Shown here: piece by piece, positions 7,508 through 34,252 of the stretch | How the letters are laid out: each line of letters starts with the position of its first letter | Position numbering within the stretch: the first letter of the stretch is position 1 | Assembly (NCBI GenBank): GCA_028288785.1 | Contig: JAQGHV010000046.1 | Span: 1 to 46,005, forward strand | Length of the DNA stretch: 46,005 nt | Direction of reading: 5' to 3' | From: Rhodospirillales bacterium | GTDB lineage: Bacteria; Pseudomonadota; Alphaproteobacteria; Acetobacterales; Acetobacteraceae | Translations under genes and position numbers: made by a program | The notes under the pieces: generated by a model | Database searches by the model: none | What the model was told of the DNA's origin: nothing | Seen by the model: only the letters and a program-made list of their open reading frames with translations

Positions 7508-7540
7508 CCGCTCCAGCAGCCGTCGGCTTTGGGACCGCAA

Positions 7541-7826
7541 ACGCGGGCCGCAAGCCCGAGCGGCTACCGCTGATCATCCACCGGTCAAAGAACGCGGAGA
7601 ATGCGCCAGGGACCTGAGGGCCGCACAAGTCCCAGCTCGCAATGCGTGCGGCAAACCCAGGCGGTAACCGCTGATCGTCCAGCGGGCTGAGAATGCGGAG
7701 CATGCGCCCGGAACCTCAGGCCATACCATTCGCCTCGCAGCGGCGAGCCGAAAGCCCGGATGGGCGCCGCCAATGGTCCGGCGAACCCAGTGGCCGGAGG
7801 CCACGCCCGGCGTTTGACGACACAAG
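7541..7826. repeat. Three degenerate tandem units (~100 bp period)
   Basis: The 405 bp between the aminotransferase and the helicase (7508-7912) contains no gene. Three related units start at about 7541, 7641 and 7741. Units 1 and 2 share GCGG-x-C, CAA(A/G)CCC, ACCGCTGATC-x-TCCA, GCGGAG-x-ATGCGCC and ACCT-x-AGG blocks. Unit 3 is more diverged but keeps AAAGCCCGG, GGTCCGGCGAACCCAG and GCCCGGCGTTTGA. Related sequence occurs at 3356-3432 and, inverted, at 42630-42790. Beyond 7826 I see only a probable leader of the helicase gene. Confidence 0.65.
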
Positions 7827-7912: not shown

Positions 7913-9493
7913 ATGCCATTTCCGAATTTACCCCCGTTGCTGGCCACGGCGCTTGCCGAACGTGGCTACACTGAACCCACCCCTGTGCAGGAAGCCGTCC
8001 TTGCCGCCGAACCTGGGCGAGACCTTCTGGTCTCCGCCCAGACCGGTTCGGGCAAGACCGTGGCCTTCGGCCTCGCCATGGCGGCGGAGCTGTTGCCCGA
8101 GGGCCAGCGCGTCCACGGCACCCGCACGCCGCTCGCACTCGCCGTCGCACCGACGCGCGAACTCGCGCTGCAGGTGGCACGAGAGCTCGAATGGCTCTAC
8201 GGCCCGGCCGGCGCGCGCATCGCGACCTGCGTCGGTGGCATGGACATCAAGCGCGAGATGCGCCTGCTCCAGCAAGGCGTCCACATCGTCGTCGGCACGC
8301 CCGGGCGACTGTGCGACCATCTCGAGCGCGGCAGCCTCGACGCCAGCACCGTCCGCACCGTCATCCTCGACGAGGCCGACGAGATGCTGGACCTCGGCTT
8401 CCGCGAGGAGCTGGAGAAGATCCTCTCCGCGGCGCCCGAGACGCGCCGCAGCCTGCTGTTCTCCGCCACCATGCCGCGCGCCATCCAGGAATTGGCGCGT
8501 CGCTACCAGCGCGACGCGCTGCGCATCGAGGTCGGCCGCGAAGGCGGCGGGCACGCCGACATTGAGCACCGCGCCGTCCTCTGCAACGCGAACGAGATGG
8601 AAAAAGCCATCGTCAACCTGCTTCGCTGGTACGAGGCAGGCGGCGCGCTGGTGTTCTGCAACACGCGCGAATCCGTCAACCGCCTCCAGGGCAACCTGCA
8701 GGAGCGCGGCTTCTCCGTCGTGGCCCTCTCCGGCGAGCTGTCCCAGAACGAGCGCACCCGCGCGCTGCAATCCTTGCGCGACGCCCGCGCCCGCGTCTGC
8801 GTCGCGACCGACGTCGCCGCCCGCGGCATCGACCTGCCCGATCTCGGCCTGGTCATCCACGCCGAACTCCCCCGCGACGCCGAAACCCTCCAGCACCGCT
8901 CGGGCCGCACCGGACGCGCCGGGCGCAAGGGCGTCTCGGTCTTCCTGGTGCCCTATCCCACCCGCAAGCGCGCCGAGCGCCTGTTCCAGGGCGCTCGCGT
9001 CACACCCTCCTGGTCGCCAGTTCCGGCCGCCGCCGAGGTGCGCGCGCGCGACGAGGAACGCCTCATCGACGACCCCGTGCTGCGCGAGGAGCCCGGTGAC
9101 GAAGACCTCGCAATCGGCCGCAAGCTGATTGAGGCACGCGGTGCCGAAGCGGTCGCGGCCGCCTTCGCTCGCATGGCCCGGGCCCGCCTGCCGGAGCCCG
9201 AAGACCTGTCCGCCGCCGCACCGATCCCACGACCACGCGAGCGCGCCGCACCGCGCGACGCTGACGGCGCCTGGTTCCGCATGGGCATTGGGCGCGCCGG
9301 CAATGCCGACCCGAAATGGCTGATCCCGTACCTCTGCCGCCGCTTCAACATCACCAAGGCCGAGATCGGCAGCATCCGCATCTCCGCCAAGGAAACCCAG
9401 GTAGAGATCGCGCCGAGCGTGGCCGAGCAGATCGAGACGGCGCTGCGTGGGCCGCAGCGGCCGGATGATATTCGGATGGCAGCGCTTCGATAA
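7913..9493 (+). CDS. DEAD-box ATP-dependent RNA helicase with DbpA-like C-terminus
   Basis: 526 residues. Helicase motifs appear in order: Q motif GYTEPTPVQ, Walker A AQTGSGKT (42-49), PTRELALQ, TPGR, DEAD (153-156), SAT (184-186), ARGIDLPDL and HRSGRTGRAGR (328-338). The C-terminal region ends with a DbpA-type RNA-binding domain (WFRMGIGRAGNADPKWLIPY, FNITKAEIGSIRI). These enzymes use ATP to remodel RNA, and DbpA/CsdA relatives assist large ribosomal subunit assembly or cold adaptation. It is followed by a strong hairpin and T-rich tract. The ribosome site before ATG 7913 is weak. Assigning it to DeaD, DbpA or RhlE by name would need alignment. Confidence 0.93.
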   Translation: MPFPNLPPLLATALAERGYTEPTPVQEAVLAAEPGRDLLVSAQTGSGKTVAFGLAMAAELLPEGQRVHGTRTPLALAVAPTRELALQVARELEWLYGPAGARIATCVGGMDIKREMRLLQQGVHIVVGTPGRLCDHLERGSLDASTVRTVILDEADEMLDLGFREELEKILSAAPETRRSLLFSATMPRAIQELARRYQRDALRIEVGREGGGHADIEHRAVLCNANEMEKAIVNLLRWYEAGGALVFCNTRESVNRLQGNLQERGFSVVALSGELSQNERTRALQSLRDARARVCVATDVAARGIDLPDLGLVIHAELPRDAETLQHRSGRTGRAGRKGVSVFLVPYPTRKRAERLFQGARVTPSWSPVPAAAEVRARDEERLIDDPVLREEPGDEDLAIGRKLIEARGAEAVAAAFARMARARLPEPEDLSAAAPIPRPRERAAPRDADGAWFRMGIGRAGNADPKWLIPYLCRRFNITKAEIGSIRISAKETQVEIAPSVAEQIETALRGPQRPDDIRMAALR

Positions 9494-9501
9494 GAAACAG
9501 G

Positions 9502-9543
9502 CTGGGGAAAGGAATTTCCCCAGACCCCATTCTTTTGTTTTTG
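9502..9543 (+). terminator. Hairpin plus T-rich tract after the helicase gene
   Basis: A nine-base-pair stem CTGGGGAAA / TTTCCCCAG closes a GGAA loop (9502-9523) and is followed by ACCCCATTC and a T-rich stretch. It starts nine bases after the helicase stop and resembles an intrinsic terminator. A near-identical element lies at 20244-20287, with one compensated base pair. The spacing of T residues from the stem is longer than in a classical terminator. Confidence 0.6.
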
Positions 9544-9556
9544 CTACTGGGTGTGA

Positions 9557-10549
9557 GTGGTGAGCGCGCACTTCAGGACGACGCTGGTGAATGGGCGGCA
9601 GGGGGATCCGGCGGTGTTGCTGGAGATGCCACAGCGCCGGCACGCCATGCTGTTTGATGCGGGAGACCTCGCTGCGCTGAGCATGCGCGCGGCGCTGAAT
9701 GTGACCCATGTTTTTCTCAGCCACGGGCATCTCGATCATCTGTTCGGGTTCGACCGGTTGCTGCGGGTGAATATCGGGCGCGAGCAGCACATCACGATCC
9801 ACGGGCCACCCGGAACCATCGCGCATATCGGGCACCGGCTGCGCGGCTATGAATGGGACCTCGTGGACCGCATCGTCCCGGTGCTGCGCTTTACGGCGTA
9901 CGAACTGCACGGCGATACGCTACGCGCGACGACCTTCATATTGAGGGACGGGTTTGAACCCAAGGCGCTACCCGATACGCGCGCGCCGGGCGGCCTTCTG
10001 CTCGATGCTCCGGGGCTGACCGTGCGCGCGGCCGCCCTGATCCACCATGGTCCGGTCCTGGCGTTCCGCGCCGAAGCCAGCGCCATGGCCGTCATCGACG
10101 CCGACGCCGTCGCGGTGCGCGGCTGGTCAACTGGCCCATGGGTCGCGGCGCTCAAGCCCGCGGCCCTGGCCGGTGCGGACGCGGCGGAAACACCTGGCGG
10201 GTTGCTGCCGCTCGCCACCCTTGGTGATTTGGTGCGTGTTCTGCCCGGCGCCTCGCTCGCCTATGTCACGGATGTCGCGGACACGCCCGCGAACCGGGCC
10301 GGCATCATCGCGCTGGCGCAGGGCGTCGACACCCTGTTTATCGAAGCGCCCTTCCTCGCAGCCGAGGCCGAGCGTGCCCAGGCGCGCGGCCACCTTACTG
10401 CCCGCGCCGCCGGCGAAATCGCGTGCGCCGCGGGGGTCGCGCGGGTAGAGCCGTTCCACTTCTCAGCGCGCCACGAACAGGCGGTGGTCCTTGCCGAGGT
10501 GGAGGAAGGTTTCGGCCGTCAGCTATTCGGCCCGCGATCCATCGCATAG
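9557..10549 (+). CDS. Metallo-beta-lactamase-fold hydrolase (RNase Z-like)
   Basis: 330 residues, GTG start (9557 or 9560). The metal-binding motif HGHLDH occupies residues 56-61, preceded by HAMLFDAGD. Further blocks are PGASLAYVTDV with an Asp in the expected metal-bridging place, GHLTARAAGEIA, and FHFSARH near the C-terminus, similar to the HFSxRY of RNase Z-type enzymes. These features place it in the RNase Z/ElaC-like branch of the superfamily, which holds tRNA 3' processing nucleases and several phosphodiesterases. The substrate cannot be read from the sequence. Its last 31 bases overlap the 3' end of the convergent dehydrogenase gene. Confidence 0.82.
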   Translation: MVSAHFRTTLVNGRQGDPAVLLEMPQRRHAMLFDAGDLAALSMRAALNVTHVFLSHGHLDHLFGFDRLLRVNIGREQHITIHGPPGTIAHIGHRLRGYEWDLVDRIVPVLRFTAYELHGDTLRATTFILRDGFEPKALPDTRAPGGLLLDAPGLTVRAAALIHHGPVLAFRAEASAMAVIDADAVAVRGWSTGPWVAALKPAALAGADAAETPGGLLPLATLGDLVRVLPGASLAYVTDVADTPANRAGIIALAQGVDTLFIEAPFLAAEAERAQARGHLTARAAGEIACAAGVARVEPFHFSARHEQAVVLAEVEEGFGRQLFGPRSIA

Positions 10550-11562
10550 GGCTGCCACCGCTTCAGGTCGGACACCGGCAGTACCGTCGGGTTCACGCAG
10601 CTCATCGGCCAGCGGCCGGTGAGGATCAGCGCCATCTCCTGCCCCGCGCGACGGCGCCGTGCCGGGTCGAAGCGCGCGCTCGCGGAGGCGTTGTGTGGCG
10701 AGAGGATGATGTGCGGCATCTGCAGCAGCGGGTTGTCCTGCTGCGGCGGCTCCTGCTCCAGTACGTCCAGCCCGGCGCCGGCGATCCATTTCTCGTCCAG
10801 CGCGCGGATCAGCGCACCCTCATCCACGGTCGGACCACGGCCGGTGTTGATAAACAGCGCGGTCGGCTTCATGGCGCGGAAGTGGTGCTCCTTCAGCAGG
10901 CCATTCGCCTCCGGCGTCGCCGGCACGTGCATGGAGATGAAGTCGGACATCGCGAGCAATTCCGGCAAGCTCACCGGCTGCACGCCATGCGAGGAGATCA
11001 TCATCTCATCGACATAGGGGTCATAGGCCACGACATGCAGGCCGAACGCCTTTGCGCGATGGGCCACCGCGCGCGCCACCCGCCCGAAGGCGATGAGGCC
11101 GAGGGTCTGGCCCATCAGGCGCGGGATGAGGTTGAGCTGCGGGCGGCCGGCCCGCCAACGGCCCTCGCGCACCATGCGGTCCTGCTCCAGCGCGCGGCGG
11201 TGCGTGGACAGCAGCAGCATCATCGCGTGGTCGGCGACCTCCTCGATGAAGGTGTCCGGGCAATTGGTGACGGGGATGCCCTTGGCGGTGGCCGCGGCGA
11301 CATCGACGTAGTCCACGCCCACCGACGCACAGGCGATGTGCTTGCACTTGCCCAGCTCCGCGATCAGCTTCGCGGAGAACTTCATGCCCTTCGCGTAAAG
11401 CACATCGGCCTTGCCCGCCGCCGCGATCAGTGCCTCCTCGGTCGGCTCGACTTCGAGGAATTCGGCATCGAGCGTGCCCAGCCCCTCCCGCTCATAGCCG
11501 TAGTCGCCGAGCTTGGCGCCAGGCGTCGCGAGGGCAGGCGTGAGGATGGTGAATGTGGCCAT
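10519..11562 (-). CDS. D-2-hydroxyacid dehydrogenase
   Basis: 347 residues of the D-isomer-specific 2-hydroxyacid dehydrogenase family. Catalytic residues are in place: Arg in NTGRGPTVDEGAL, Glu in LEQEPPQQ and His in SPHNA. The dinucleotide-binding glycine motif is degenerate: GLIAFGRVARAVA has Ala at two of the three usual Gly positions. It is the last gene of the minus-strand ABC importer operon, starting 11 bases after the enolase-superfamily gene ends. It may reduce or oxidise the 2-keto acid formed by that dehydratase. ATG 11562 is preferred over a TTG five codons upstream. Confidence 0.88.
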   Translation of the reverse strand: MATFTILTPALATPGAKLGDYGYEREGLGTLDAEFLEVEPTEEALIAAAGKADVLYAKGMKFSAKLIAELGKCKHIACASVGVDYVDVAAATAKGIPVTNCPDTFIEEVADHAMMLLLSTHRRALEQDRMVREGRWRAGRPQLNLIPRLMGQTLGLIAFGRVARAVAHRAKAFGLHVVAYDPYVDEMMISSHGVQPVSLPELLAMSDFISMHVPATPEANGLLKEHHFRAMKPTALFINTGRGPTVDEGALIRALDEKWIAGAGLDVLEQEPPQQDNPLLQMPHIILSPHNASASARFDPARRRRAGQEMALILTGRWPMSCVNPTVLPVSDLKRWQPYAMDRGPNS

Positions 11563-11573
11563 GTCGGTGTCTC

Positions 11574-12749
11574 TCAAGTCTTGGGTGGGCGCGCGCGGAC
11601 TGCGGCCTCGTTGATGTCGGTGCCCCAGCCGGGGGCGGTCGGCACCACGAAGGCGCCATTCTCGAACTCCGGCAGGTTGGTCACGAATTCATCGCGCCAC
11701 GGGCAGCTGTCGATGTCGATCTCCATGATGCGGAAATTCGGGATCGACGCGCAGAAATGCGCTGATATGAAGGAGCAGAGATGGCCGTAGAAATTATGCG
11801 GCGCGCAGTTGATCTCATAGGCGTCGCACATGGACGCGATCTTCATGCTCTCGCCGAGCCCGTTCCACGGCACGTCCACGATGGCGACATCCATCGCATA
11901 GGCCTCAAGGAAGGGCTTGAAGTCGCGCCGCCCGTGCAGCGTCTCGCATGACGCGATGGCGCAGGGCGCGCGTCCCCGGATCATCGCCAGCGATGCCGGG
12001 TCGTGGCTGTCGATTTCGAGCCAGGTCAGCCCGATCGGCGAGACCGCGTCGGCGACACGCAGGAACCCCTCCGTCTTGAAGTGGAAATTGGTGTCCAGCA
12101 TGATGCCCATCTCGGGGCCGACCGCGTCGCGTATCGTCATGAGCTCGCGGGTCAGGTCGCCCAGCAACGCGTTGTCCCAGTTGAGCTCGGGCCAGCCCGC
12201 CGCGCGCCCGAAGCCCGGCGCGTATTGTGAGAAGGCGCCGTCTTTCCACGGAAAGATATTGGTCTTCAGGCAGCGAAACCCGGCGTTCTTCACCTCCTCG
12301 GCGTGCCGCCCAAGCGCCTCGTAGTCGGGGATCGGGGGGAAGAACTGCGTGCTGCGGCCGGAGACGCGATAGGTGCCGAAATGCGACCAGTAGACCGGGA
12401 TGCGGTCGCGGATCGGGCCGCCGAACAGTGCGTGCACTGGCATCCCCGCTTCCTTGCCGCGGATGTCGAGCAGCGCGTTCTCGATCGCCGCGATCGCCTG
12501 CTGGTTCAGACCGCCGCGGGCTTGGCGCGTGCCGACGTGTAGCCGCGCGACGATGGCCTCGGAGGCCCGCGGATCGGTGCCGATCACCAGCGGGCTCAGC
12601 GCGCGGATCACGTCGGACAGTCCCTTGGACCCGAAATCCTCGTTGTATTCGGACCAGCCGGTGATGCCGCAGGCCGTGCTCATCTTCAGGAAGGAGAAGG
12701 TGCGCCAGCCGGCATCCGCGATCATCGTGTCGATGCGTTCGATCTTCAT
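11574..12749 (-). CDS. Enolase-superfamily (mandelate racemase/muconate lactonizing-type) dehydratase
   Basis: 391 residues, full length for the mandelate racemase subgroup. It has an N-terminal capping domain and a barrel carrying GFRCLKTNIFPW (Lys segment), metal-ligand candidates Asp in MLDTNFHF, Glu in WLEIDSHD and Glu in SCETLHGRRDF, and a possible catalytic His in CAPHNFYGH. The PHNFYGH block resembles sugar-acid dehydratases of this superfamily, so it most likely removes water from an aldonic or uronic acid to give a 2-keto-3-deoxy acid. It lies between the permease genes and a 2-hydroxyacid dehydrogenase in one operon, six bases after the permease stop. The exact sugar acid is unknown. 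Confidence 0.85.
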   Translation of the reverse strand: MKIERIDTMIADAGWRTFSFLKMSTACGITGWSEYNEDFGSKGLSDVIRALSPLVIGTDPRASEAIVARLHVGTRQARGGLNQQAIAAIENALLDIRGKEAGMPVHALFGGPIRDRIPVYWSHFGTYRVSGRSTQFFPPIPDYEALGRHAEEVKNAGFRCLKTNIFPWKDGAFSQYAPGFGRAAGWPELNWDNALLGDLTRELMTIRDAVGPEMGIMLDTNFHFKTEGFLRVADAVSPIGLTWLEIDSHDPASLAMIRGRAPCAIASCETLHGRRDFKPFLEAYAMDVAIVDVPWNGLGESMKIASMCDAYEINCAPHNFYGHLCSFISAHFCASIPNFRIMEIDIDSCPWRDEFVTNLPEFENGAFVVPTAPGWGTDINEAAVRARPPKT

Positions 12750-12755
12750 GGCGCG

Positions 12756-13658
12756 CTACTCCTTCACGGCACCGGTCAGCGAGGAGACGTAGTAGTCCAC
12801 GAAGAAGGAATAGAAGATCGCGACCGGCAGCGAGCCCAGCAACGACCCCGCCATCAGCGCCCCCCACTGGTACACGTCGCCGGTCACCAGCTCGGTCAGA
12901 ATCGCGACGGGCACCGTCTTCCGTTCCGAAGACTGGATGAACGCGAGCGCGTAGATGAACTCGTTCCAGGACAGCGTGAACGAGAAGATGCCCGCGCTGA
13001 TCAACCCGGGAACTGCGAGCGGCAGCGTGATGCGGCGCAGGATCTGCAACCGTGTCGCGCCATCGATCAGCGCGCATTCCTCCAGCTCGTAGGGGATGGA
13101 CTTGAAGTACCCGATGAGCAGCCAGGTGCAGAAAGGGATGAGGAAGGTCGGGTAGGTAAGGATCAGCGCGAAGGGCGTGTCGAACAGCCCCAGATTATAA
13201 ACCATGGTCGCCAGCGGGATGAACAGGATCGACGGCGGCACCAAGTAGGCGAGATAGATCCCGAGCCCGACATACTGGCTGCCTCGAAACCGGAGCCGCT
13301 GGATCGCATAGGCCGCCAGCGTGCTCGCGAACAGCGACAGCACGGTGGAGGACACCGCCACGATCATGGTGGTCCACAACCAGCGCGGATAGCTCGTCTC
13401 GAACAGCAGCAGGCGGATGTGGTCGAGCGTCGGCGAGGAAATCCAGAACGGGTTGTGGTTGCGGAAATCGTAGAGCTCCGCGTTCGGCTTCAGCGCGGTG
13501 ACCGCCATCCAATAGAACGGGAACAGCAGGATCAGCAGGAAGCAGCCGAGCGGGATCCACAGCATCACCATGCGGCGGGCGCGGCTGTCCCACGCCATGG
13601 TTTCCGATTGATCGGAGCCGGAGTTGGTGGAGGCGGTTGAAGCGGCGGCGTCAGTCAT
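12756..13658 (-). CDS. Carbohydrate ABC transporter permease (MalG/UgpE-like)
   Basis: 300 residues, about six transmembrane helices. The first is VMLWIPLGCFLLILLFPFYW near the N-terminus. The cytoplasmic EAA loop that contacts the ATPase reads EECALIDGATRLQILRRITLPLAVPG, close to the consensus for MalG-type permeases. It is followed by SAGIFSFTLSWNEFIYALAF, another mark of this class. It starts inside the end of the other permease gene (8-base overlap), so the two inner-membrane subunits are probably translated in a fixed ratio. The soluble N-terminus is Ser/Ala/Thr-rich and unremarkable. Confidence 0.93.
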   Translation of the reverse strand: MTDAAASTASTNSGSDQSETMAWDSRARRMVMLWIPLGCFLLILLFPFYWMAVTALKPNAELYDFRNHNPFWISSPTLDHIRLLLFETSYPRWLWTTMIVAVSSTVLSLFASTLAAYAIQRLRFRGSQYVGLGIYLAYLVPPSILFIPLATMVYNLGLFDTPFALILTYPTFLIPFCTWLLIGYFKSIPYELEECALIDGATRLQILRRITLPLAVPGLISAGIFSFTLSWNEFIYALAFIQSSERKTVPVAILTELVTGDVYQWGALMAGSLLGSLPVAIFYSFFVDYYVSSLTGAVKE

Positions 13659-14607
13659 TGCTCTCTCCCTGCTGCCACTTGCGCCGGGCGAGGGCGAAAT
13701 AGCTGAACAGCGTGGCCGCGACGAGGAAGGGGATCATGGAGACGGCGATCGCGGCGCCCTCGCCGAGTTCGCCACCGGCGATGCCGCGCTGGAAGGCAAG
13801 CGTCGCCAGCAGGTGGGTCGAGTTCACCGGGCCACCGCGGGTGATCGCGTAGACGAGTTGGAAATCGGTGAAGGTGAAGATGATCGAGAAGGTCATCACG
13901 ATCGCCAGGATCGGCAGGAGCATCGGGAAGGTGATGAAGCGGAAGCGCTGCCAAGCCGTGGACCCATCGAGCAGTGCGGCCTCATAGAGCGAGGGTGAGA
14001 TGGTCTGCAGGCCCGCGAGCAGCGAGATCGCCACGAAGGGAATGCCGCGCCAGATATTAGCGACGATCAGCGAAAAACGGGCCGGCCACTCCGTGTTGAT
14101 GAAGTCGATATTCGTGCTCCGCCATCCCAGCACCTCGACGAAAATGTACGAGATGATCGAGAATTGCGGATCATAGATCCACCAGAAGGCAATGGCGCTC
14201 AGCACGGTGGGCACGATCCACGGCAGCAGGATGATGGCGCGGATGATCGACTTGAACGGCGTGTGCTGGTTGAGCAGCAAGGCCAGCCACAGCCCGAGGC
14301 CGAATTTACCGACCGTCGCGATGGCCGTGTAGAACACGGAGTAGAATACCGCGTTCAGGAAGATCGGGTCGGTCAGCAGGTACTCGAAATTTTCGAGCCC
14401 CACCCAGGAGCCGCTCCTGCCGATCGTCGTGTCGGTGAAGGCCAGGAAGATGCCCAGGCCGAGCGGGTAGGTCAGGAAGGTCATCAGCAGGCCGACCGCC
14501 GGCAGCAGGCACATGACGACGAGGAACGGCTTCCAGTCGAAGAGCTTCACGATCCAGGACGGATCGCGCCTGGCCTTGATCCATTGAGCGGCGGTGACGG
14601 CGGACAT
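13651..14607 (-). CDS. Carbohydrate ABC transporter permease (MalF/UgpA-like)
   Basis: 318 residues with six predicted transmembrane helices. The first follows a short basic N-terminus (KPFLVVMCLLPAVGLLMTFL). The EAA-type loop reads LYEAALLDGSTAWQRFRFITFPMLLP and is followed by IIFTFTDFQLVYAITRGGP, standard for the UgpA/MalF class. It forms the translocation pore with the MalG-like subunit encoded just downstream. A 51-base gap separates it from the binding-protein gene upstream. Confidence 0.93.
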   Translation of the reverse strand: MSAVTAAQWIKARRDPSWIVKLFDWKPFLVVMCLLPAVGLLMTFLTYPLGLGIFLAFTDTTIGRSGSWVGLENFEYLLTDPIFLNAVFYSVFYTAIATVGKFGLGLWLALLLNQHTPFKSIIRAIILLPWIVPTVLSAIAFWWIYDPQFSIISYIFVEVLGWRSTNIDFINTEWPARFSLIVANIWRGIPFVAISLLAGLQTISPSLYEAALLDGSTAWQRFRFITFPMLLPILAIVMTFSIIFTFTDFQLVYAITRGGPVNSTHLLATLAFQRGIAGGELGEGAAIAVSMIPFLVAATLFSYFALARRKWQQGESND

Positions 14608-14658
14608 GGCGGAAACTCCGACAGGGCGGCGCGCTCTGGCGCCGCCCGGAAAACTGGA

Positions 14659-15999
14659 TCAGCGCCGGCGGAAGAAGCGCGTGGCGCGCCGTTCGGCCTC
14701 ACGCGCCGCGGCCTCAGGCGTCGCCTGTCCGGAGGCCACCGAGGCACACATCTGCACCATCACGTAATCCGCGTTCGCCGCTGCCGAGCCTTCGCTGATC
14801 GGGCCTTTGTACCCGATCCAGAAGGGGCTCTTCATCGTGTCGCGGAAGATCGTGACCTTGGGGTCGGCGGTCCAGACGGCGCTCGTGCCGTAGTTCTCCA
14901 GCGGATGCGCCCAGTAGCCGAGGTTGGCGTTCAGCCAGGGGTCGTACTGCTCGCGCTCCAGCAGGAACATGAGCAGTGCCTTGGCCGCGTTCGGGAAGCG
15001 GGAGTGCTTGAACACCATGGCGTTGAGCGTGAGCCCCGCCATCGGGGAGAACGACGCCAACCCCTTGGGCAGCAGCGAGTGCTCGGTATCGTCGGCGATG
15101 GCGCGCGTCGCGGGATCGTTCTTCAGCCCGAAGTAGAGCGAGACGCCGTTCGCAGTCATCCAGCATTCGCTCGACGCATAGGCGCGGTTATTGCTGATAT
15201 CGCCCCAGGCGATCGTGCCCGGGATGAACGTCGCATAGAGGTCCTTGAGGTAGGTGAGCGCGTTGACCGTCTCGCGGCTGTTGATGCCGACAGAGCCATC
15301 CTCGTTCACCAGGAACCCGCCATGCGACCAGATCAGCCAGTTGGCGAAGCCGTTGCCATCGCCCACGGCATTGCCGAGCGCAAAGCCCGCGGGCTTGTTT
15401 GCCTGGCGCAGCTTGCGGCAGAGGTCGAGGTAGCCGGCATGGTCCTCGGGTGGGCGCTCGAAGCCGGCGGCGTTGACCGCGGACTTGCGCCAAACAAGCG
15501 GGCCGCCGGAGGCCCCGAAGGGCAGGCCGATCCAGTTGTTGGTGCCGTGACGCTTGCCGTAGCGCTGCGCCAGCGGCAGCCAGCCGCCATAACGCCGCCC
15601 CAGGTATTCCGCGATGTCGGTCAGCTCGACCAGCTTGTCGGCGTAGACGTGCGGGGCCTCGTTGAAGCCGATGATCAGGTCCGGGCCGGCGCCGGTATTC
15701 GCAGTGACCGCCGTCTGCTGGGTGATGTCCTCCCAGCCGACGAAATCGACGCGGACCTCGACGCCGGTGGCCGCCGTAAATCGGGCGCAGTTGGCGCGGA
15801 AAACCTCCTCGTCCGGGGCCACGAAGCGCACGGGGCGCAGCATGCGCAGCGTGGCGCCACTCTCGATCGCGAGGCGGGGTGCCGTCGCTTCGGCAGCGGT
15901 AATTTGGCTGGCCTGCGCCTGGGCCTTCTCCGCCATCGCCATGGCCGCGAGTGCGGCCGCCGATAGGCTGATCGCGTTGCGGCGTGTCACTTCAACCAT
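14659..15999 (-). CDS. ABC transporter extracellular solute-binding protein (family 1)
   Basis: 446 residues from ATG 15999, which has a GGGAGAA ribosome site at good spacing. An N-terminal export signal with a twin arginine (VTRRNAISLSAAALAAMA, then AQAQA) suggests Tat or Sec secretion to the periplasm. The mature part has typical family 1 features: GVEVRVDFVGWEDI, TGAGPDLIIGFNEAP, and a central VNEDGSVGINSRETVNALTY stretch seen in sugar-binding proteins. It lies between the ATPase and permease genes of one importer and should deliver the substrate to it. The ligand is likely a sugar or sugar derivative, judging from the class and the adjacent dehydratase. Confidence 0.92.
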   Translation of the reverse strand: MVEVTRRNAISLSAAALAAMAMAEKAQAQASQITAAEATAPRLAIESGATLRMLRPVRFVAPDEEVFRANCARFTAATGVEVRVDFVGWEDITQQTAVTANTGAGPDLIIGFNEAPHVYADKLVELTDIAEYLGRRYGGWLPLAQRYGKRHGTNNWIGLPFGASGGPLVWRKSAVNAAGFERPPEDHAGYLDLCRKLRQANKPAGFALGNAVGDGNGFANWLIWSHGGFLVNEDGSVGINSRETVNALTYLKDLYATFIPGTIAWGDISNNRAYASSECWMTANGVSLYFGLKNDPATRAIADDTEHSLLPKGLASFSPMAGLTLNAMVFKHSRFPNAAKALLMFLLEREQYDPWLNANLGYWAHPLENYGTSAVWTADPKVTIFRDTMKSPFWIGYKGPISEGSAAANADYVMVQMCASVASGQATPEAAAREAERRATRFFRRR

Positions 16000-16027
16000 T
16001 GTCGTTTTCTCCCTGGTTTTTCGGTGA

Positions 16028-17077
<1,050 letters not shown>

Positions 17078-17232
17078 GCGTCTCCCCCGGCGCCGCGCGG
17101 GTTCCGTCTGATGCGGAACCTCTCCGGCGTGCGACGCCCTTTCTGTTGCGCAAAGCTAGGCATGCGAACCGCGTGCTGGCAACATGCGCGTTCCTGCTTA
17201 GCGGGCGGAAGCCGCCCTGGAGATGATGCGCC

Positions 17233-18159
17233 ATGCCGCTTCCGGAATCCTTGCGTGGCCGCCTGACGCTTCCGGCAGTCGCCGCGCCGCAATTCCTCGT
17301 CTCCGGCCCGGACCTGGTGGTGGAAACCTGCAAGGCCGGGCTGCTCGGCACCTTCCCGGCGCTGAACCAGCGTACCAACGAGGGATTTTCGGACTGGCTG
17401 GATGAGATCCGCGAGCGGCTCGGCAACACGCCTGCGCCCTACGGCGTGAACCTGATCGTGCACAAGTCCAACGCCCGGCTCGACCAGGATCTGGCGACGG
17501 TGGTGAAGCACCGCGTACCACTGGTGATTACCTCGCTGGGCGCGGTGAGCGAGCTGGTGCAGGCCGTGCAATCCTATGGCGGCCTGGTGTTTCATGACGT
17601 CATCAACCTGCGCCACGCGGCCAAGGCGGCCGAGGCCGGCGTCGACGGGCTGATCGCGGTGACGGCGGGTGCGGGTGGCCATGCCGGGCTGCTCAACCCT
17701 TTCGCGTTCCTGACCGAACTCCGCTCGATCTTCGATGGCACACTGCTGCTGGCGGGAAGCCTCTCCACCGGCCGGCACATTGCTGCCGCCCGGGTCGCCG
17801 GCGCCGACCTCGCCTATCTCGGCACCCGCTTCATCGCGACGACGGAGAGCATGGCGAGCGACGACTACAAGCAGATGATCCTGAACAGCTCTGCCAAGGA
17901 CATCGTCTACACGGATGCGATCAGCGGCGTGAAAGGCAGCTTCATGCGGGCGTCGCTGGAGAATGCCGGGCTCGACCCGGAAAACCTGCCCGAGAAGAAG
18001 GCGATGAATGTAGGCAGCCACGAGAAGCGCGCCTGGACGAACATCTGGTCGGCCGGGCAGGGGGTTGGTGCCATCCGCGACGTGCCGACTACTGCCGAGC
18101 TCTGCGCACGCCTCGCCGCCGAATACCGCGCGGCGCTGGACGAAGCCGCGACCTACTGA
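17233..18159 (+). CDS. Nitronate monooxygenase-family flavoprotein
   Basis: 308 residues of the 2-nitropropane dioxygenase/nitronate monooxygenase (TIM-barrel, FMN) family. Seen are VAAPQFLVSGPDLVVETCKAG and GLLGTFPALN near the N-terminus, YGVNLIVHKSN, the phosphate-binding glycine-rich AGAGGHAG (His in the usual active-site place), and GADLAYLGTRFIATTES. Such enzymes oxidise alkyl nitronates or reduce enones/quinones with FMN. A GGAGA ribosome site precedes ATG 17233. The gene faces the Rrf2 regulator, and their stop codons overlap by seven bases. It is divergent from the sugar-importer operon. Confidence 0.87.
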   Translation: MPLPESLRGRLTLPAVAAPQFLVSGPDLVVETCKAGLLGTFPALNQRTNEGFSDWLDEIRERLGNTPAPYGVNLIVHKSNARLDQDLATVVKHRVPLVITSLGAVSELVQAVQSYGGLVFHDVINLRHAAKAAEAGVDGLIAVTAGAGGHAGLLNPFAFLTELRSIFDGTLLLAGSLSTGRHIAAARVAGADLAYLGTRFIATTESMASDDYKQMILNSSAKDIVYTDAISGVKGSFMRASLENAGLDPENLPEKKAMNVGSHEKRAWTNIWSAGQGVGAIRDVPTTAELCARLAAEYRAALDEAATY

Positions 18160-18530
18160 GCCGCGAGCGCCGGCTGCGCGCGCAGCGTGTCGAGGTTCGC
18201 CGCATCCAGGATCGCCGCCGTCGCGTCGCGCACCTGGCGCATCAGCAGCCGGATCGCGCAGGCGATCAGCGCGAGCGGGCCATCGACGATCCGGATAACG
18301 TTGCCGAGGCGGATATCGGCAGGGTGCATCGCGAGCGCGTAGCCGCCGGACTGGCCGCGCGTGCTGCGCAGCACGCCGCCGCGGCGCAGCTCCAGGAGGA
18401 TGGCTTCGAGGAACTTGTGCGGCGCATGCGCGCGCTCGGCGACCTGCTGGATGGGCAGCGGCCCATAAGCACGCCAGTCGGCCAGCACAACGAGGGCGCG
18501 CAGCGCGTATTTCGCTTTTTGCGTGAACAT
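18153..18530 (-). CDS. Rrf2-family transcriptional regulator lacking most of its cysteines
   Basis: 125 residues. The winged-helix part is canonical: QKAKYALRALVVLA, PIQQVAERAHAPHKFLEAIL, and the RSTRGQSGGYAL wing. In Rrf2/IscR/NsrR proteins a loop with three cysteines holds an Fe-S cluster after the VDGPLAPI-like stretch. Here VDGPLALIACAIRLLMRQVRDAT runs straight through with a single Cys, as if about 16 residues had been removed in frame. It therefore probably cannot ligate a cluster by the usual three Cys and may be a constitutive or differently triggered repressor. It is divergent from the class V aminotransferase gene across about 60 bp, a likely target promoter. Confidence 0.85.
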   Translation of the reverse strand: MFTQKAKYALRALVVLADWRAYGPLPIQQVAERAHAPHKFLEAILLELRRGGVLRSTRGQSGGYALAMHPADIRLGNVIRIVDGPLALIACAIRLLMRQVRDATAAILDAANLDTLRAQPALAAQ

Positions 18531-18592
18531 GCAGTAGCGCCATACACGCAGCGGGCTTCCAGGCCAAGCCGGCCTGCGCCATGCTGCCCGGC

Positions 18593-19696
18593 ATGAGCAA
18601 TCTGCCCCTGTTCCCCCGCGCCGATTTCGGCCTGCCCGACGACATCGCGCATGTCTGCGCCGGCGGCGAAACACCCTTCCTGCTGCGCCACGCGAACGCC
18701 TTCGCAGCCTACGCTCGCGACAAAGCCCAGGGCCTCCCCGGCCGCACCGCACAGGAAGCCGAGGTGGAGCGAGTGCGCGGTTCACTCGCCAAGCGATGGA
18801 ACTGCGCGACCGGCGATATCGGCTTCGTGTCCTCGGTCGCCGAGGGCGTCTCCATGCTCGCCGAAAGCATCGACTGGCGCAGCGGCGACAACGTGCTGTT
18901 CGAGCCGGATGAATACCCCTCCGTCGTCGCACCCTTCATGGCCGGCGGCCGGGCGGAAATACGCTTCAGCCCCTGCGCCCAGATGGCCGATTTGGTCGAT
19001 GCCCGCACCCGCATCATCGGCGTGAGCGCGGCGTCCTACCTCAACGGCGCGCGTCCGGATCTGCTGGCACTGCGCGCGCTTGCCGACAGCGTCGGCGCCT
19101 GGCTGGTCGTGGACTACACGCAGGCGGCGGGCTGGCTGCCTATCGAGGCCGGGGTCGCTGATTTCGCCTTTGCCTCCAGCTACAAATGGCACCTCGGGAC
19201 CACCGGCATCGCCACCGCCTTCTGGAACCGCGTGCGGCAGCCGGAGTGGATGCCGAGCAGCGCGGGATGGATGTCCATCGCCCCCGCGCCGGGCCGGCTC
19301 GACTACAATGCCGGCCTGCCGCTGGTGCCGGATGCGATGCGCTTCTGCCGCGGCAATCCGGCGCACCTACCGTTGTACGTGCTGGGCTCCGCGCTCGACT
19401 ATCTCGGTCAGTGGGAGACCCCGGTCGTGCAGCGCCACGTGCACACCCTGACCGTCGCGCTGCTGGGGCAGCTCGAGGCGGCGGGCATCCCCACCATCAC
19501 CCCGCGCGACCCCGGCGCGCATGGCGCCAGCGTCTGCATCGCCTCGCCGCGCGCGGACGCGATCGTGGCGGCGCTGGGGGAGAAGGATGTGCTTGCCTGG
19601 GGCGGCCGCGGGCGCATCCGCTTCTCTTTCCACGGCTACAACGCGATGGATGATGTCTCCCGCATCATGGACGCGCTGGTGCCCGCCTGGGGGTGA
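18593..19696 (+). CDS. Class V aminotransferase (cysteine-desulfurase-like PLP enzyme)
   Basis: 367 residues from ATG 18593 (ATG 18581 would add four). A fold-type I PLP enzyme of class V: LVVDYTQAAGWLPI with the cofactor Asp, and Lys198 in SYKWHLGTTGIATAFW as the Schiff-base lysine. FVSSVAEGVSMLAESIDWRSGDNVLF and GGRGRIRFSFHGYN near the C-terminus also fit. It resembles CsdA/IscS relatives and kynureninase-like proteins, but the flexible Cys loop of true desulfurases was not recognised, so the reaction is open. It is divergent from the Rrf2 gene, whose family often controls Fe-S or cysteine genes; a regulatory link is inferred only. Confidence 0.82.
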   Translation: MSNLPLFPRADFGLPDDIAHVCAGGETPFLLRHANAFAAYARDKAQGLPGRTAQEAEVERVRGSLAKRWNCATGDIGFVSSVAEGVSMLAESIDWRSGDNVLFEPDEYPSVVAPFMAGGRAEIRFSPCAQMADLVDARTRIIGVSAASYLNGARPDLLALRALADSVGAWLVVDYTQAAGWLPIEAGVADFAFASSYKWHLGTTGIATAFWNRVRQPEWMPSSAGWMSIAPAPGRLDYNAGLPLVPDAMRFCRGNPAHLPLYVLGSALDYLGQWETPVVQRHVHTLTVALLGQLEAAGIPTITPRDPGAHGASVCIASPRADAIVAALGEKDVLAWGGRGRIRFSFHGYNAMDDVSRIMDALVPAWG

Positions 19697-19749
19697 CGCG
19701 GGGGCCGCCGGCGCGGTAGCATCGGGGCCGCGAATAGGGAGAATGTGCC

Positions 19750-20241
19750 ATGCCGCATGACGGGCACGACCATAGCCACGAGACTCCACCCGACGGCTGG
19801 AAGAACTCCGGCGTCCAGGTGATTCCCGGCGACAGCCTGGACACCAACACGGCGCAGTCGCCAGGCATGAACCGCGCGGCCGCCATCAACTTCGCCCGCG
19901 TCGGCGCGCAGAAGATCTGGGCCGGCACCGTTCATATCCACGCCAATGCGAAGACCGGCGCGCACCACCACGGCGCGCTGGAAAGCGTCATCTACGTGCT
20001 GAAAGGCCGAGCCCGCATGCGCTGGGGCGAGAAGCTGGAATTCGTCGCCGAAGCCGGGCCTGGCGACTTCATCTTCGTGCCCCCCTACGTGCCGCACCAG
20101 GAGATCAACGCCAGTACGGATGAGACGCTGGAATGCGTGCTCGTGCGGTCGGACAATGAAGCGGTGGTGGTGAATTTGGATATCGAGCCGGTGGAGAAGC
20201 CGGAGAACGTGGCCTGGATCGATCCGATTCATCGGGCGTAA
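19750..20241 (+). CDS. Cupin-domain protein
   Basis: 163 residues, one cupin barrel. The N-terminus is His-rich (DGHDHSH). The barrel shows the first cupin motif with metal-binding His residues (GAHHHGALESVIYVLKGRARMRWG, then a Glu) and a second motif (PGDFIFVPPYVPHQEIN) with its own His. This fits a small metal-dependent isomerase, dioxygenase or sugar-modifying enzyme; function cannot be narrowed. It starts 53 bases after the aminotransferase gene on the same strand and is followed immediately by a hairpin element, so it probably ends that transcription unit. Confidence 0.85.
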   Translation: MPHDGHDHSHETPPDGWKNSGVQVIPGDSLDTNTAQSPGMNRAAAINFARVGAQKIWAGTVHIHANAKTGAHHHGALESVIYVLKGRARMRWGEKLEFVAEAGPGDFIFVPPYVPHQEINASTDETLECVLVRSDNEAVVVNLDIEPVEKPENVAWIDPIHRA

Positions 20242-20243
20242 GG

Positions 20244-20287
20244 CCGGGGAAAGGAATTTCCCCGGACCCCATTCTTTTGATTTTACC
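20244..20287 (+). terminator. Hairpin plus T-rich tract after the cupin gene
   Basis: Stem CCGGGGAAA / TTTCCCCGG with a GGAA loop (20244-20265), then ACCCCATTCTTTTGATTTT. It begins three bases after the cupin stop. It is the same element as at 9502-9543, but the second stem pair is C-G here and T-A there, so pairing is conserved while the bases change. Likely an intrinsic terminator or a repeat used as one. Confidence 0.6.
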
Positions 20288-20336
20288 ACTTGGCGCCGGA
20301 CAGTCTGACCAGCGCCCAATAAGCGGGAACTGTTCC

Positions 20337-21113
20337 ATGTCCAACGCCGCACTCGGCATCTCCTCCCTCGAAGGCAAGGTCGGCCCGGAGGAGTGGCAGG
20401 CCCGTCAGGACCTCGCCGCCTGCTACCGGCTGGTGGCGCTGTGGGACATGACCGACATGATCGCGAACCACATCTCGGTGCGCGTGCCGGGGACGGAGGA
20501 TGAGTTCCTCATCAACGCCTATGGGTTGCTGTACGAGGAGATCACCGCTTCCTCCCTCATCCGCATTAACCTGGCAGGCGAGATCCTGTGGAAGCCGGAT
20601 TTCGACTATGGCGTGAACCGCGCCGGCTTCGTGATCCATTCGGCGGTCCATCGGGCGCGACATGATGCGGCCTGCATCATCCACACGCACACGCCGGTGG
20701 GCATGGCCGTTTCGTCGATGGAGTGCGGCTTCCTGCCGATGACGCAGACGGCGATGCGGTTCGCGAAGGTCGCATATCACGACTATCGCGGCGTGGTCGT
20801 GGATGTGGCTGAGCAGGAAGACCTGGTGCGCAACCTCGGCGATGCCGACCTCATGGTGCTGCGCAATCACGGCTTGCTGGTGTGCGGACCCTCGGTGGCG
20901 GAGGCCTTCTCCAACATCTATCGCGCCGAACTGGCATGCCGGGCGCAGGTGCTGGCGATGGCATCAAACGGCAAGATGATCCTGCCACCGCAGGATGTGA
21001 TCGAGGCGACCAACCACCTCTACAAGCCGACGACGCGGCGGCCCTTCGGCAAGCTCGAATGGCCGGCGCTGCTGCGCAAGCTGGACCGCACGGATACGAG
21101 CTGGCGGGAATGA
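20337..21113 (+). CDS. Class II aldolase/adducin-family protein
   Basis: 258 residues. The zinc-binding residues of class II aldolases are visible: His pair in IIHTHTPVGMAV and His in VLRNHGLLVCG. INAYGLLYEEITASSLIRIN, near the N-terminal third, is typical of the family, and GVNRAGFVIHSAVHRARHD includes conserved motif positions. Such enzymes cleave carbon-carbon bonds of sugar phosphates or decarboxylate/aldol-cleave hydroxy-keto acids. It overlaps the PrpF-like gene by four bases (ATGA). That pairing suggests aldol cleavage of a tricarboxylate- or oxaloacetate-like intermediate, but this is inference. ATG 20337 was chosen because upstream is repeat-like DNA. Confidence 0.87.
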   Translation: MSNAALGISSLEGKVGPEEWQARQDLAACYRLVALWDMTDMIANHISVRVPGTEDEFLINAYGLLYEEITASSLIRINLAGEILWKPDFDYGVNRAGFVIHSAVHRARHDAACIIHTHTPVGMAVSSMECGFLPMTQTAMRFAKVAYHDYRGVVVDVAEQEDLVRNLGDADLMVLRNHGLLVCGPSVAEAFSNIYRAELACRAQVLAMASNGKMILPPQDVIEATNHLYKPTTRRPFGKLEWPALLRKLDRTDTSWRE

Positions 21114-31368: not shown

Positions 31369-32187
31369 ATGGCGCAGGTTGTGGTGATCACGTCCGGAAA
31401 AGGCGGCGTCGGGAAGACGACGAGTTCGGCGGCTATCGCCACGGGCCTGGCGCAGCGCGGCAAGAAGACTGTCGTCATCGACTTCGACGTGGGGCTGCGC
31501 AACCTGGACCTCATCATGGGGGTCGAGCGGCGGGTGGTGTTCGATATCGTCAACGTCATCCAGGGCGATGCGAAGCTCAACCAGGCGCTCATCCGCGACA
31601 AGCGGGTCGAGCACTTGGCGATCCTTCCGGCCAGCCAGACGCGCGACAAGGACGCCCTGACCAAGGAGGGCGTCCAGATAATCATCGAGGAGCTGTCGAA
31701 GGACTACGACTACATCATCTGCGACAGCCCGGCCGGGATCGAGAAGGGGGCGCTGCTGGCGCTATACTTCGCGGACCAGGCGATCGTGGTGACGAACCCG
31801 GAAGTGAGCTCGGTGCGGGACTCCGACCGTATTCTCGGCGTGCTGCAGTCGAAGTCCAAGCGAGCCGAGGAAAAGCGCGAGCCAGTGAAGGAACACCTGC
31901 TGGTGACGCGCTACGATCCGGCGCGGGTGGAGCGCGGTGAGATGCTGAAGCTCGAGGACATCCGGGAGATTTTGGCGATCCCGCTCCTCGGCGTGGTGCC
32001 CGAGAGCGAGAGCGTGCTGCGCGCCTCCAACACCGGCACGCCCGTGATCCTGGATGCGGAGAGTCCGGCGGGCCTCGCCTATGGCGATGCGGTCGCGCGC
32101 TTCCTTGGCGATGAGCGGCCGCACCGCTTCCTCGAAGTGGAGAAGAAGGGCCTGTTCAAGCGGCTGTTTGGGGGGAGGGCGGCGTGA
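31369..32187 (+). CDS. minD: Septum site-determining ATPase MinD
   Basis: 272 residues. Deviant Walker A KGGVGKT (11-17) in a ParA-type ATPase. VVIDFDVGLRNLDLIMGVE and RDKDALTKEGVQIIIEEL are typical MinD, as is ICDSPAGIEKGALLALYFAD. The C-terminus ends in an amphipathic membrane-targeting helix (KKGLFKRLFGG). MinD-ATP dimerises on the inner membrane, recruits MinC and oscillates through MinE-stimulated hydrolysis. A good AGGGAG ribosome site precedes ATG 31369. Its stop overlaps the start of minE by one base (TGATG). Confidence 0.97.
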   Translation: MAQVVVITSGKGGVGKTTSSAAIATGLAQRGKKTVVIDFDVGLRNLDLIMGVERRVVFDIVNVIQGDAKLNQALIRDKRVEHLAILPASQTRDKDALTKEGVQIIIEELSKDYDYIICDSPAGIEKGALLALYFADQAIVVTNPEVSSVRDSDRILGVLQSKSKRAEEKREPVKEHLLVTRYDPARVERGEMLKLEDIREILAIPLLGVVPESESVLRASNTGTPVILDAESPAGLAYGDAVARFLGDERPHRFLEVEKKGLFKRLFGGRAA

Positions 32188-32465
32188 TGGCATGGCTCGA
32201 CATCTTCCGGAGCCGCAAGCCGCCGCCGTCGGCGTCGGCTGGGGCAGCGAAGGAGCGCTTGCAGATCGTGCTGGCGCATGAGCGCATCGGCCGCACGAGG
32301 GAAGACTTCCTGCCGAAGCTGCAAGCGGAGCTGGTCGCGGTGGTCGCGCGGTATGTGGCGATCGATCCCGGGAAGGTGGCGGTCAACCTGGATCGCGGCG
32401 GGGATATGAGTACGTTGGCCATCGAGATCGAGTTGCCGGGGCCGCGGGGAGCGGTGGCGCGGTAG
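32187..32465 (+). CDS. minE: Cell division topological specificity factor MinE
   Basis: 92 residues. The N-terminus (MAWLDIFRSRK) is the amphipathic membrane-binding segment. AKERLQIVLAHERIGRTRED is the contact helix that displaces MinC from MinD and triggers its ATPase. The C-terminal specificity domain runs through FLPKLQAELVAVVARYVAID and STLAIEIELPG. This is the intact copy. A frameshifted duplicate lies 340 bp downstream at 32807. The start is translationally coupled to minD; a GTG three bases earlier (32184) is the alternative. Confidence 0.95.
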   Translation: MAWLDIFRSRKPPPSASAGAAKERLQIVLAHERIGRTREDFLPKLQAELVAVVARYVAIDPGKVAVNLDRGGDMSTLAIEIELPGPRGAVAR

Positions 32466-32742
32466 TCTGCCCGATGCGCCGTCGCACGTTCGACGAACAA
32501 TGAAGGTATCAACCATGCGATCGATCTTCCGGAGTGTGGTGATCCTACTGGTTTAGACGGCTGGCGGAGCTTTGCTCAGCGTATGCGCGTCCGCGTGCTG
32601 CCGTGGGTCTTCGGGGCTGTGCATCAGCTGCTGAAGGAGTTGGGGTAAGGCGACCGCGTCGCGGTTGCGATCGTGCTTTTCAGCAATGCGGTGCCAGCTT
32701 TCGCCGTCGTTTGCCGTAAGAGTTCAGCCGAGGCGTCTGAGC
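32466..32742. other. Gene-free stretch between minE and the gene remnants
   Basis: About 277 bp with no gene that I can support; with the remnant that follows, the stretch from minE to the minE copy is 340 bp. Short reading frames exist on both strands but none resembles a known protein. It may contain further decayed sequence, since both flanks are products of rearrangement. No terminator hairpin or repeat was recognised. Confidence 0.4.
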
Positions 32743-32808
32743 TCACCGCAACGCCTCCTCCGCAACCTCCTGTACCACCATCCCTGAAAACCCATTGCTG
32801 TGCGTGAT
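32743..32808 (-). pseudogene. C-terminal remnant of an NMT1/THI5-like binding protein gene
   Basis: Reading leftward, the last 20 or so codons spell ITHSNGFSGMVVQEVAEEAL and then a stop at 32743. This matches the end of the intact protein encoded at 34253-35155 (ITHSNGFAGMVAEEVVEEAL). At the DNA level the two stretches are visibly similar through the stop. Upstream coding sequence is missing: at 32802-32808 the remnant runs into the start of the minE copy, sharing the bases GCGTGAT with both parent sequences. It is the tail of a third gene of this family, destroyed by rearrangement. Confidence 0.75.
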
Positions 32809-33083
32809 GGGTCGGCTGGACATCTTCCGGAGCCGCAAGCCGCCCTGGCCGGCGACCGCGCGCGCTGCGAAGGAGCGCTTGCAGATCGTGCTGGCGCACG
32901 AGCGCATCGGCCGCACGCGCGAAGGCTTCCTGCCGAAGCTGCAGGCGGAGCTTGTGGCGGCGGTCGCCCGGTATGTGGCGATCGATCCCGGGAAGGTGGC
33001 GGTCAACCTGCATTGCGGAGGGACATGAGCACGCTGACGATTGAAATTGAGCCGTCGGAGCAGCGCAGGTGGTGGCACGGTAG
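32807..33083 (+). pseudogene. Frameshifted duplicate of minE
   Basis: Starting at ATG 32807 the sequence repeats minE: LDIFRSRKPP, AAKERLQIVLAHERIGRTRE, FLPKLQAELVA and ARYVAIDPGKVAVNL, all with high DNA similarity to 32187-32465. A single-base loss at about 33018-33023 brings TGA into frame at 33026-33028, giving a 73-residue product that ends CGGT. The remaining specificity-domain sequence (STLTIEIE) continues in another frame, and a GGTAG at about 33080 matches the original minE end. The truncated product would keep the MinD-contact helix but lack the last strand. Whether it is expressed is unknown; the upstream region is a remnant of another gene and shows no clear promoter. Confidence 0.82.
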
Positions 33084-34242: not shown

Positions 34243-34252
34243 GCGTGGCGCC

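Follow-up and report, generated by a model that had tools for sequence, protein, structure and literature searches.

The two hairpins that begin at positions 9502 and 20244 of the window (the whole 46,005-nt stretch of Rhodospirillales DNA analysed here) belong to an old REP/BIME-like repeat family, mostly passed on by vertical descent, in Acetobacteraceae of the Roseomonas group. The computations establish the family, the hairpin and where the copies lie; the function of the element we infer. Coupled change of the hairpin arm and the tail behind it strongly suggests a DNA triplex in these elements, and the explanation that we find best overall, with a probability of about 0.5, is a REP/BIME-like repeat whose antisense strand would fold as a class I triplex and act as a block at gene ends.

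Two copies in the window

The original prediction described twin, nearly identical hairpin elements, and the copies are indeed 89% identical over 53 nt, share one and the same tail, start within nine bases of a stop codon (Table 1) and differ at the second stem pair, which is T-A in one and C-G in the other. That pair had been offered as direct evidence that the hairpin is maintained; it is present, but a single compensation in two copies is weak when taken alone, and it is covariation across related copies (below) that bears out the structure. With up to 3 mismatches allowed, the two copies are the sole matches of the 18-nt core in the window (0.03 expected in shuffles), which also holds just two perfect class I triplex motifs, one per copy. 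The tail by itself is unremarkable (3 window matches at up to 3 mismatches, 1.28 expected), and the folding z-scores of the two copies alone are modest, from -1.5 to -3.5. An Rfam search of the window gave no match at the gathering score; for 17 related loci it gave 3 matches up to an E value of 0.05, all under the gathering score and two of them miRNA models. A sigma-70 scan of positions 9000–21000 found no promoter, and a promoter within the element, considered by eye, was rejected on its inconsistent -35/-10 spacing.

Table 1. Coordinates of the two window copies and of adjoining features
Feature	Position	Strand	Remarks
Hairpin A, copy 1	9502..9523	+	9-bp stem CTGGGGAAA/TTTCCCCAG, loop GGAA
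Tail, copy 1	9524-9537	+	ACCCCATTCTTTTG
Third-strand (mirror) segment, copy 1	9525..9531	+	CCCCATT, parallel to arm GGGGAAA
Perfect class I intrastrand triplex motif, copy 1	9504..9531	-	AATGGGG-TCT-GGGGAAA-TTCC-TTTCCCC; stem 7, loops 3 + 4
T-rich tail, copy 1	9529..9543	+	ATTCTTTTGTTTTTG
Stop TAA of upstream DEAD-box RNA helicase gene (7913-9493)	9491..9493	+	8 nt 5′ of copy 1 stem
Hairpin A, copy 2	20244..20265	+	9-bp stem CCGGGGAAA/TTTCCCCGG, loop GGAA
Tail, copy 2	20266-20279	+	identical to copy 1 tail
Third-strand (mirror) segment, copy 2	20267..20273	+	CCCCATT
Perfect class I intrastrand triplex motif, copy 2	20246..20273	-	AATGGGG-TCC-GGGGAAA-TTCC-TTTCCCC
T-rich tail, copy 2	20271..20285	+	ATTCTTTTGATTTTA
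Stop TAA of upstream cupin gene (19750-20241)	20239..20241	+	2 nt 5′ of copy 2 stem
Apparent remains of central stem of a paired element	20290..20319	+	TTGGCGCC...GCGCCCAA; right-hand hairpin, present at the P. arctica site, absent here

Elsewhere in the window, an 80-nt direct repeat (7540–7619 and 7641–7720, 78% identical) lies just 5′ of the helicase gene, two direct repeats of 221 nt each (32182–32402 and 32802–33022, 88% identical) stand 620 bp apart, and a 67-nt repeat (85%) joins 32742–32808 with 34252–34318. A 660-aa open frame on the minus strand at 7928–9910, antisense to the helicase gene, is probably not a gene but a shadow ORF of high-GC DNA.

Size, host range and anatomy of the family

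That the element is a dispersed repeat, as predicted, was confirmed by a genome-wide search with the stem-loop core: GGGGAAAGGAATTTCCCC, with up to 2 mismatches, has 160 matches in the 4.1-Mb genome to which the window belongs (G000, 90.8% complete, of which the window is contig C178), and the reversed control of the same pattern has none. The relatives compared were Plastoroseomonas arctica LMG 28251 (G001) and P. hellenica (G002). Searched with up to 1 mismatch, GGGGAAANGAATTTCCCC occurs 139 times in G000, 179 times in P. arctica and 4 times in P. hellenica, and 21 of 299 genomes of the taxonomic family are positive, some by a single match. A covariance model of 38 copies (E ≤ 0.001) places the element in 42 of the 299 genomes and in 14 of 102 genera when at most 18 candidates are scored per genome; with up to 150 scored, ten chosen genomes carry 5 to 28 elements each. 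By the same model P. hellenica has 10. Hairpin and tail are found together in Rhodovarius, Pseudoroseomonas deserti, Roseomonas sp. GC11, R. rubea and Acetobacteraceae bacterium AT-5844, among others, and the bare core also occurs in unrelated bacteria, without the tail. Among the open-licence papers listed in literature searches on palindromic repeats and triplex motifs, we saw no earlier account of this repeat family.

In each unit a purine/pyrimidine hairpin comes first, then a pyrimidine segment in mirror image and lastly a T-rich tail, and the half-element has roughly the consensus GAAGNAAGGCY-GGGGAAA-NGAA-TTTCCCC-RGA-CCCCATTCTTTTRTTTTTG-NNTATTGG. Altogether 202 half-elements were collected, 87 in 0.69 Mb of G000 and 115 in 1.99 Mb of P. 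arctica, and the reversed sequence of the same 2.68 Mb contains none. The commonest 5-mers 5′ of the G-run are AGGCT and AGGCC, and a CGTC-like end (G[AT]C[GA]ACAG) is present in 11 of 153 copies. Two flank classes (AAGG for stop-facing, GACAGCATG for start-facing copies) had been suggested by eye; the split is absent from the counts.

Units are either single or face to face, neighbours less than 800 bp apart being arranged '+-' in 58 cases, '++' in 2 and '-+' in none, so that 58 of 60 face each other. Measured between the first G of each half, composite spans cluster near 117, 135, 155 and 230 bp within a range of 113–245 bp, and two longer composites measure 380 and 556 bp. A TTGG/TGGT motif stands at the start of the central stem in both halves of 42 of the 56 composites shorter than 330 bp, and an extra palindrome around CGTATACG is placed between hairpin and tail in 5 of 58.

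Conservation of the stem

For pairing within the stem we used the 182 copies with the 18-nt core, drawn from the 202 in the two genomes. The inner pair flanking the core is standard in 159 of these against 77.4 expected if the two sides were independent, the outer flanking pair in 151 (118.5 expected) and core pair 5 in 175 (146.1 expected); the third flanking position is unpaired, being standard in 31 of 182. Uncompensated stem changes, which were looked for as counter-evidence, are rare, 71 of the 1456 stem cells of these copies being non-Watson-Crick. Thirty-three gapped or odd rows were dropped from 71 aligned copies, and in the remaining gap-free alignment of 38 copies double-sided changes occupy 38 cells (shuffled mean 10.2) and the covariation score is 0.287 (0.142 shuffled), values reached by none of 500 shuffles. 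In the same 38 copies, 4 of 9 pairs show a double change, as was equalled in 77 of 500 shuffles, and the 6 further pair types are not in excess of the shuffles (7.1). Mismatches in the stems comprise 14 G.U and 20 A.C, and thus there is no preference for RNA wobble pairs.

Coupling of the tail to the hairpin arm

The C-run of the tail mirrors the G-run of the arm position by position and in parallel, 4G going with 4C, 5G with 5C and GGGAG with CCCTC. Run lengths are 4/4 in 63 copies and 5/5 in 61, with 4 off-match copies of 4G and 5C and 13 of 5G and 4C. An exact parallel match of arm and tail is found in 161 of 198 usable elements (61 of 259 were unusable), compared with a mean of 78.3 and a maximum of 102 in 2000 permutations. 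The rarer arms include GGGAG, accompanied by a CCCTC tail in 7 of 8 cases, six-G arms, 4 of 6 of which have a tail of six C, and the sole GGGGGAG arm, from another genus, whose tail is CCCCCTC; four GGG arms and the one GGAG arm are mismatched to their own tails. By group, the match holds in 48 of 63 elements of G000 (27.4 when permuted), 68 of 81 of P. arctica (31.9), 30 of 32 of g17 (17.1), 6 of 8 of P. hellenica (4.7) and 6 of 8 of other Roseomonas-like genomes (3.5), and in Rhodovarius in 3 of 6, with 3.3 expected on permutation. Shared descent of a few subtypes could account for part of the match.

Since the match is parallel, it is not accounted for by ordinary antiparallel pairing. A GGGAG arm accompanies CCCTC and not GAGGG, and an alternative Watson-Crick pairing between tail and arm was rejected on this ground. 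An H-type pseudoknot was dismissed on geometrical reasoning. On the antisense strand the third strand comes first, then the purine arm, the loop and the pyrimidine arm, as in a class I intrastrand DNA triplex (purine motif, reverse-Hoogsteen) in the definition of PMC4666352, where class I comprises three stems of 6–15 nt, loops of 1–6 nt and the triplets A.A-T, G.G-C and T.A-T, one mismatch being permitted from 7 nt up. Under these published triplex-finder criteria (ITxF class I, re-coded here) 170 of the 202 half-elements qualify, 168 with one mismatch. The proportion falls to 16.5% after tail shuffling, and with tails swapped randomly between copies it is 76% against 84% for the real ones; because so many pass with swapped tails, the looser criteria alone are no proof of coupling. 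Perfect class I motifs (stem of at least 7, at least 3 G) number 127 in the 2.68 Mb, of which 126 fall inside elements; 126 of the 202 half-elements are perfect, and the reversed sequence contains no perfect motif.

Among the 161 matched copies, the first A of the arm stands opposite a tail A in 117, a T in 39 and a G in 5, C at this place being excluded by the match rule. According to PMC4666352, the purine motif permits both T.A-T and A.A-T and the pyrimidine motif only T. A pyrimidine-motif (class III, RNA-capable) triplex would be feasible with one mismatch, and was rejected on the consensus A, which makes a disallowed triplet.

Position relative to genes

Gene calls came from a purpose-written ORF caller and some are surely wrong; in an early pass 11 of 147 elements lay within a predicted gene. 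Within 45 nt, the codon that a half-element directly faces is a stop in 111 of the 202 and a start in 59. In the stop-facing copies the stem starts at a median of 7 nt past the stop (10th–90th percentile 4–16), and the 36 strict canonical terminators found at gene ends without the element start at a median of 37.5 nt. This anchoring does not arise from lack of space, because it is retained where at least 60 nt are to spare: among 34 such same-direction footprints, 23 lie within 15 nt of the stop (3.5 expected) and one within 15 nt of the start. Of the 15 composites among them 14 lie that close to the stop (1.3 expected), and the singles are less anchored (9 of 19). Anchoring to the stop codon suggests a role tied to mRNA ends or translation, for which a purely DNA-level model has no need.

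In G000 the element occupies 17 of the 111 junctions between convergent genes, 40 of the 427 between same-direction genes and none of the 100 between divergent ones (one more site being divergent if its neighbours are taken differently), rates that are inflated because the contigs were mostly chosen for carrying elements; in P. arctica the corresponding figures are 18 of 269, 49 of 1249 and 9 of 265. The higher occupancy of convergent than of divergent junctions, the stop-proximal position and the T-rich tail are what would be expected if intrinsic terminators had spread as a repeat, the RNA hairpin lying behind the stop, the tail releasing RNA polymerase and facing pairs serving both convergent genes, and at some orthologous sites that lack the element another palindromic sequence was seen by eye. 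We nevertheless regard this reading as unlikely. Of the original description as 'terminator-like', the place behind the stop and the T-rich tail stand, and the geometry of hairpin and tail does not. As in intrinsic (Rho-independent) terminators, a stable GC-rich hairpin behind a gene has a T-rich stretch downstream; unlike in them, that stretch is offset from the stem by C3–C6 plus A/T, the sequence is common to about 160 places, and it also faces start codons. The T-run 0–2 nt after the stem that is a feature of intrinsic terminators is absent, and in stop-facing copies each of the first 8 tail positions is T in at most 10%. A lower stem (AAGNAA:UUCUU) that might complete a terminator was rejected as being in slight excess only over shuffled flanks in all four groups (0.79 against 0.72 and 0.68 against 0.64 in stop-facing copies). 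A terminator scan found no plus-strand site at 9502 or 20244; its minus-strand site at copy 1 is one of 5 found, with 5.0 expected.

Two further properties speak against one-way termination. Start-facing halves keep hairpin and tail as well as stop-facing ones do (perfect triplex in 38 of 59 against 71 of 111; tail T fraction 0.71–0.72 against 0.69), and in 16 of 31 same-direction composites no more than 22 nt lie between the end of the element and the next predicted start codon, which leaves no room for a promoter behind the element. Strict canonical terminators are present at 12 of 248 convergent and 24 of 608 same-direction gene ends without the element and at 1 of 49 and 3 of 49 with it, about equally rare in both, so no trade-off between the two is visible. 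Given this equal rarity, the lack of G.U preference in the stems and the intact start-facing copies, we find a symmetric DNA element more likely than an RNA terminator working one way; the anchoring to stop codons pulls the opposite way, and none of these points is decisive.

Inheritance and mobility

At orthologous sites with both flanks found in the part of the P. arctica genome compared, the element is kept in P. arctica at 18 of 23 G000 sites, and in the reverse comparison at 20 of 25; single halves are kept at 22 of 33 and, in reverse, 24 of 35. Since most orthologous sites keep the element in P. arctica, the copies are largely inherited. The site of copy 1 has the same hairpin there, with only a loop base altered (G to A), and the site of copy 2 has a full pair, the facing half of which carries a G-run and a C-run of five each and one imperfect stem pair.

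Such inheritance bears on the reading of the repeat as a non-autonomous mobile element, REP/REPIN-like or MITE-like, in which a transposase would recognize the hairpin ends and stop-proximal copies would survive as the least harmful. The inverted pairing of close neighbours (58 of 60), the uneven copy number between relatives (179 against 4 at up to 1 mismatch) and the existence of empty sites are in keeping with this; on the other side, most compared sites are common to both species, the structure has been maintained since the species split, and a target-site duplication was not established. PF01797 (IS200/RAYT-type transposase), the only transposase family searched, was found in 0 of 9 genomes, the control being positive in 5 of 14, and a RAYT/IS200 transposase as the driver was therefore rejected. 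A transposon-sized element between the hairpins was likewise rejected on the evidence of the two longest composites (380 and 556 bp), one of which holds no called ORF and the other a 110-aa frame. Taken together, we think mobility a distinctly unlikely explanation.

Relation to known repeats and possible function

By place and layout the element is, as we judge from these comparisons, REP/BIME-like, and by structure it appears PIT/BoxC-like. With REP/BIME it has in common short high-copy palindromes, mostly 3′ of genes, and head-to-head dimers; in PMC3733652, GTAG and CGTC REPs are described as head-to-head dimers located downstream of genes, the CGTC REPs likewise being without a known transposase and stated to be missing in Acetobacteraceae. 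Unlike the REP superfamilies, the elements here have no GTAG tag and a CGTC-like end in a minority only, and unlike REP/BIME their hairpin bears a mirror third strand and a T-rich tail. With BoxC/PIT/TM_ECO they share a repeated intergenic single-strand triplex motif with three short G/C-rich stems, sometimes in inverted pairs, a copy number strongly variable between related strains and, as far as PMC4666352 reports, no transposase nearby. TM_ECO, as described there, belongs to class II, its stem being of the 9-nt CCCTCNCCC type, and shows no tendency to lie at a particular distance from genes; the elements here, unlike it, are of class I, with a mostly 7–8-nt GGGGAAA-type stem and a T-rich tail, and form paired composites with many copies close behind stops. 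The class II consensus CCCTCNCCC-N3-6-GGGNGAGGG-N3-GGGNGAGGG (PMC4666352) does not describe their arms, which are GGGGAAA and relatives. By the features tested, the element is thus outside TM_ECO and the tagged REP superfamilies.

For the E. coli BoxC/PIT motifs, PMC4666352 reports triplexes in vitro, DMS footprinting that gave no support to stable formation in vivo, earlier work in which neither promoter nor terminator activity was seen, and an association of the E. coli triplex motif with genome rearrangement. We suggest that the antisense (template) strand of the present element may fold into a triplex hairpin when supercoiling, transcription or replication opens the DNA, and that this would create a local block or pause point at the gene end. 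Such a block could curb transcription or replication running into the next gene, or absorb supercoils there, and would let some read-through past. A role for the hairpin in RNA, like that of some E. coli REPs, in which it would stall terminating ribosomes or block 3′ exonucleases and so tune the upstream gene, is in our estimation improbable: the position of the stem, 4–16 nt past the stop, fits the range of less than 16 nt within which E. coli REPs reduce translation (work cited in PMC12306157), but the stems show no G.U preference, start-facing copies are no less intact than stop-facing ones, and the relation of arm to tail would need a pyrimidine-motif RNA triplex, which the consensus tail A disfavours.

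To return to the class I DNA triplex as gene-end block, a wider proposition, which we advance tentatively and with more doubt than belief, is that this lineage keeps around a hundred or more DNA triplex hairpins per genome (an extrapolated number) by selection acting on three strands, both arms and the third strand altering together, as template-strand boundaries at gene ends behind stops. If true, this would provide evidence from evolution that bacteria form intrastrand DNA triplexes in the living cell and that these matter there, evidence of a kind that footprinting of the E. coli motif did not give (PMC4666352). The family, of which a genome holds well over a hundred copies in several arm/tail subtypes and stop-proximal positions, amounts to a natural mutagenesis set for the question of triplexes in vivo, and its members can serve directly as test sequences that allow the third strand to be separated from the hairpin.

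Further observations at individual sites

The element within 9493–9557 of the window separates the helicase gene from a metallo-beta-lactamase-fold gene in both G000 and P. arctica; in P. hellenica, as judged by eye, the two genes appear to overlap by ATGA and there is no element, and the C-terminus of the helicase is shorter in G000, again by eye. At the first loop base G000 has G in 45 of 67 copies and P. arctica A in 45 of 86; 10 of 18 orthologous pairs show a G-to-A difference there, which looks like a concerted drift. Near G001:C3 ~196580, in the gene interval where G000 holds the element, the sequence behind the stop is another palindrome (GGTAAGCAAGGC...GCGCCTTACC), which may represent a second repeat family. 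The palindrome around CGTATACG stands before the C-run, with arms that vary and are mostly matched, at G001:C2 ~291605 and ~368728, with further sites in G001 at C3 162021 and 222582, C6 158199 and C4 137299, and a comparable inserted palindrome with CATATATG is found in Rhodovarius (L076).
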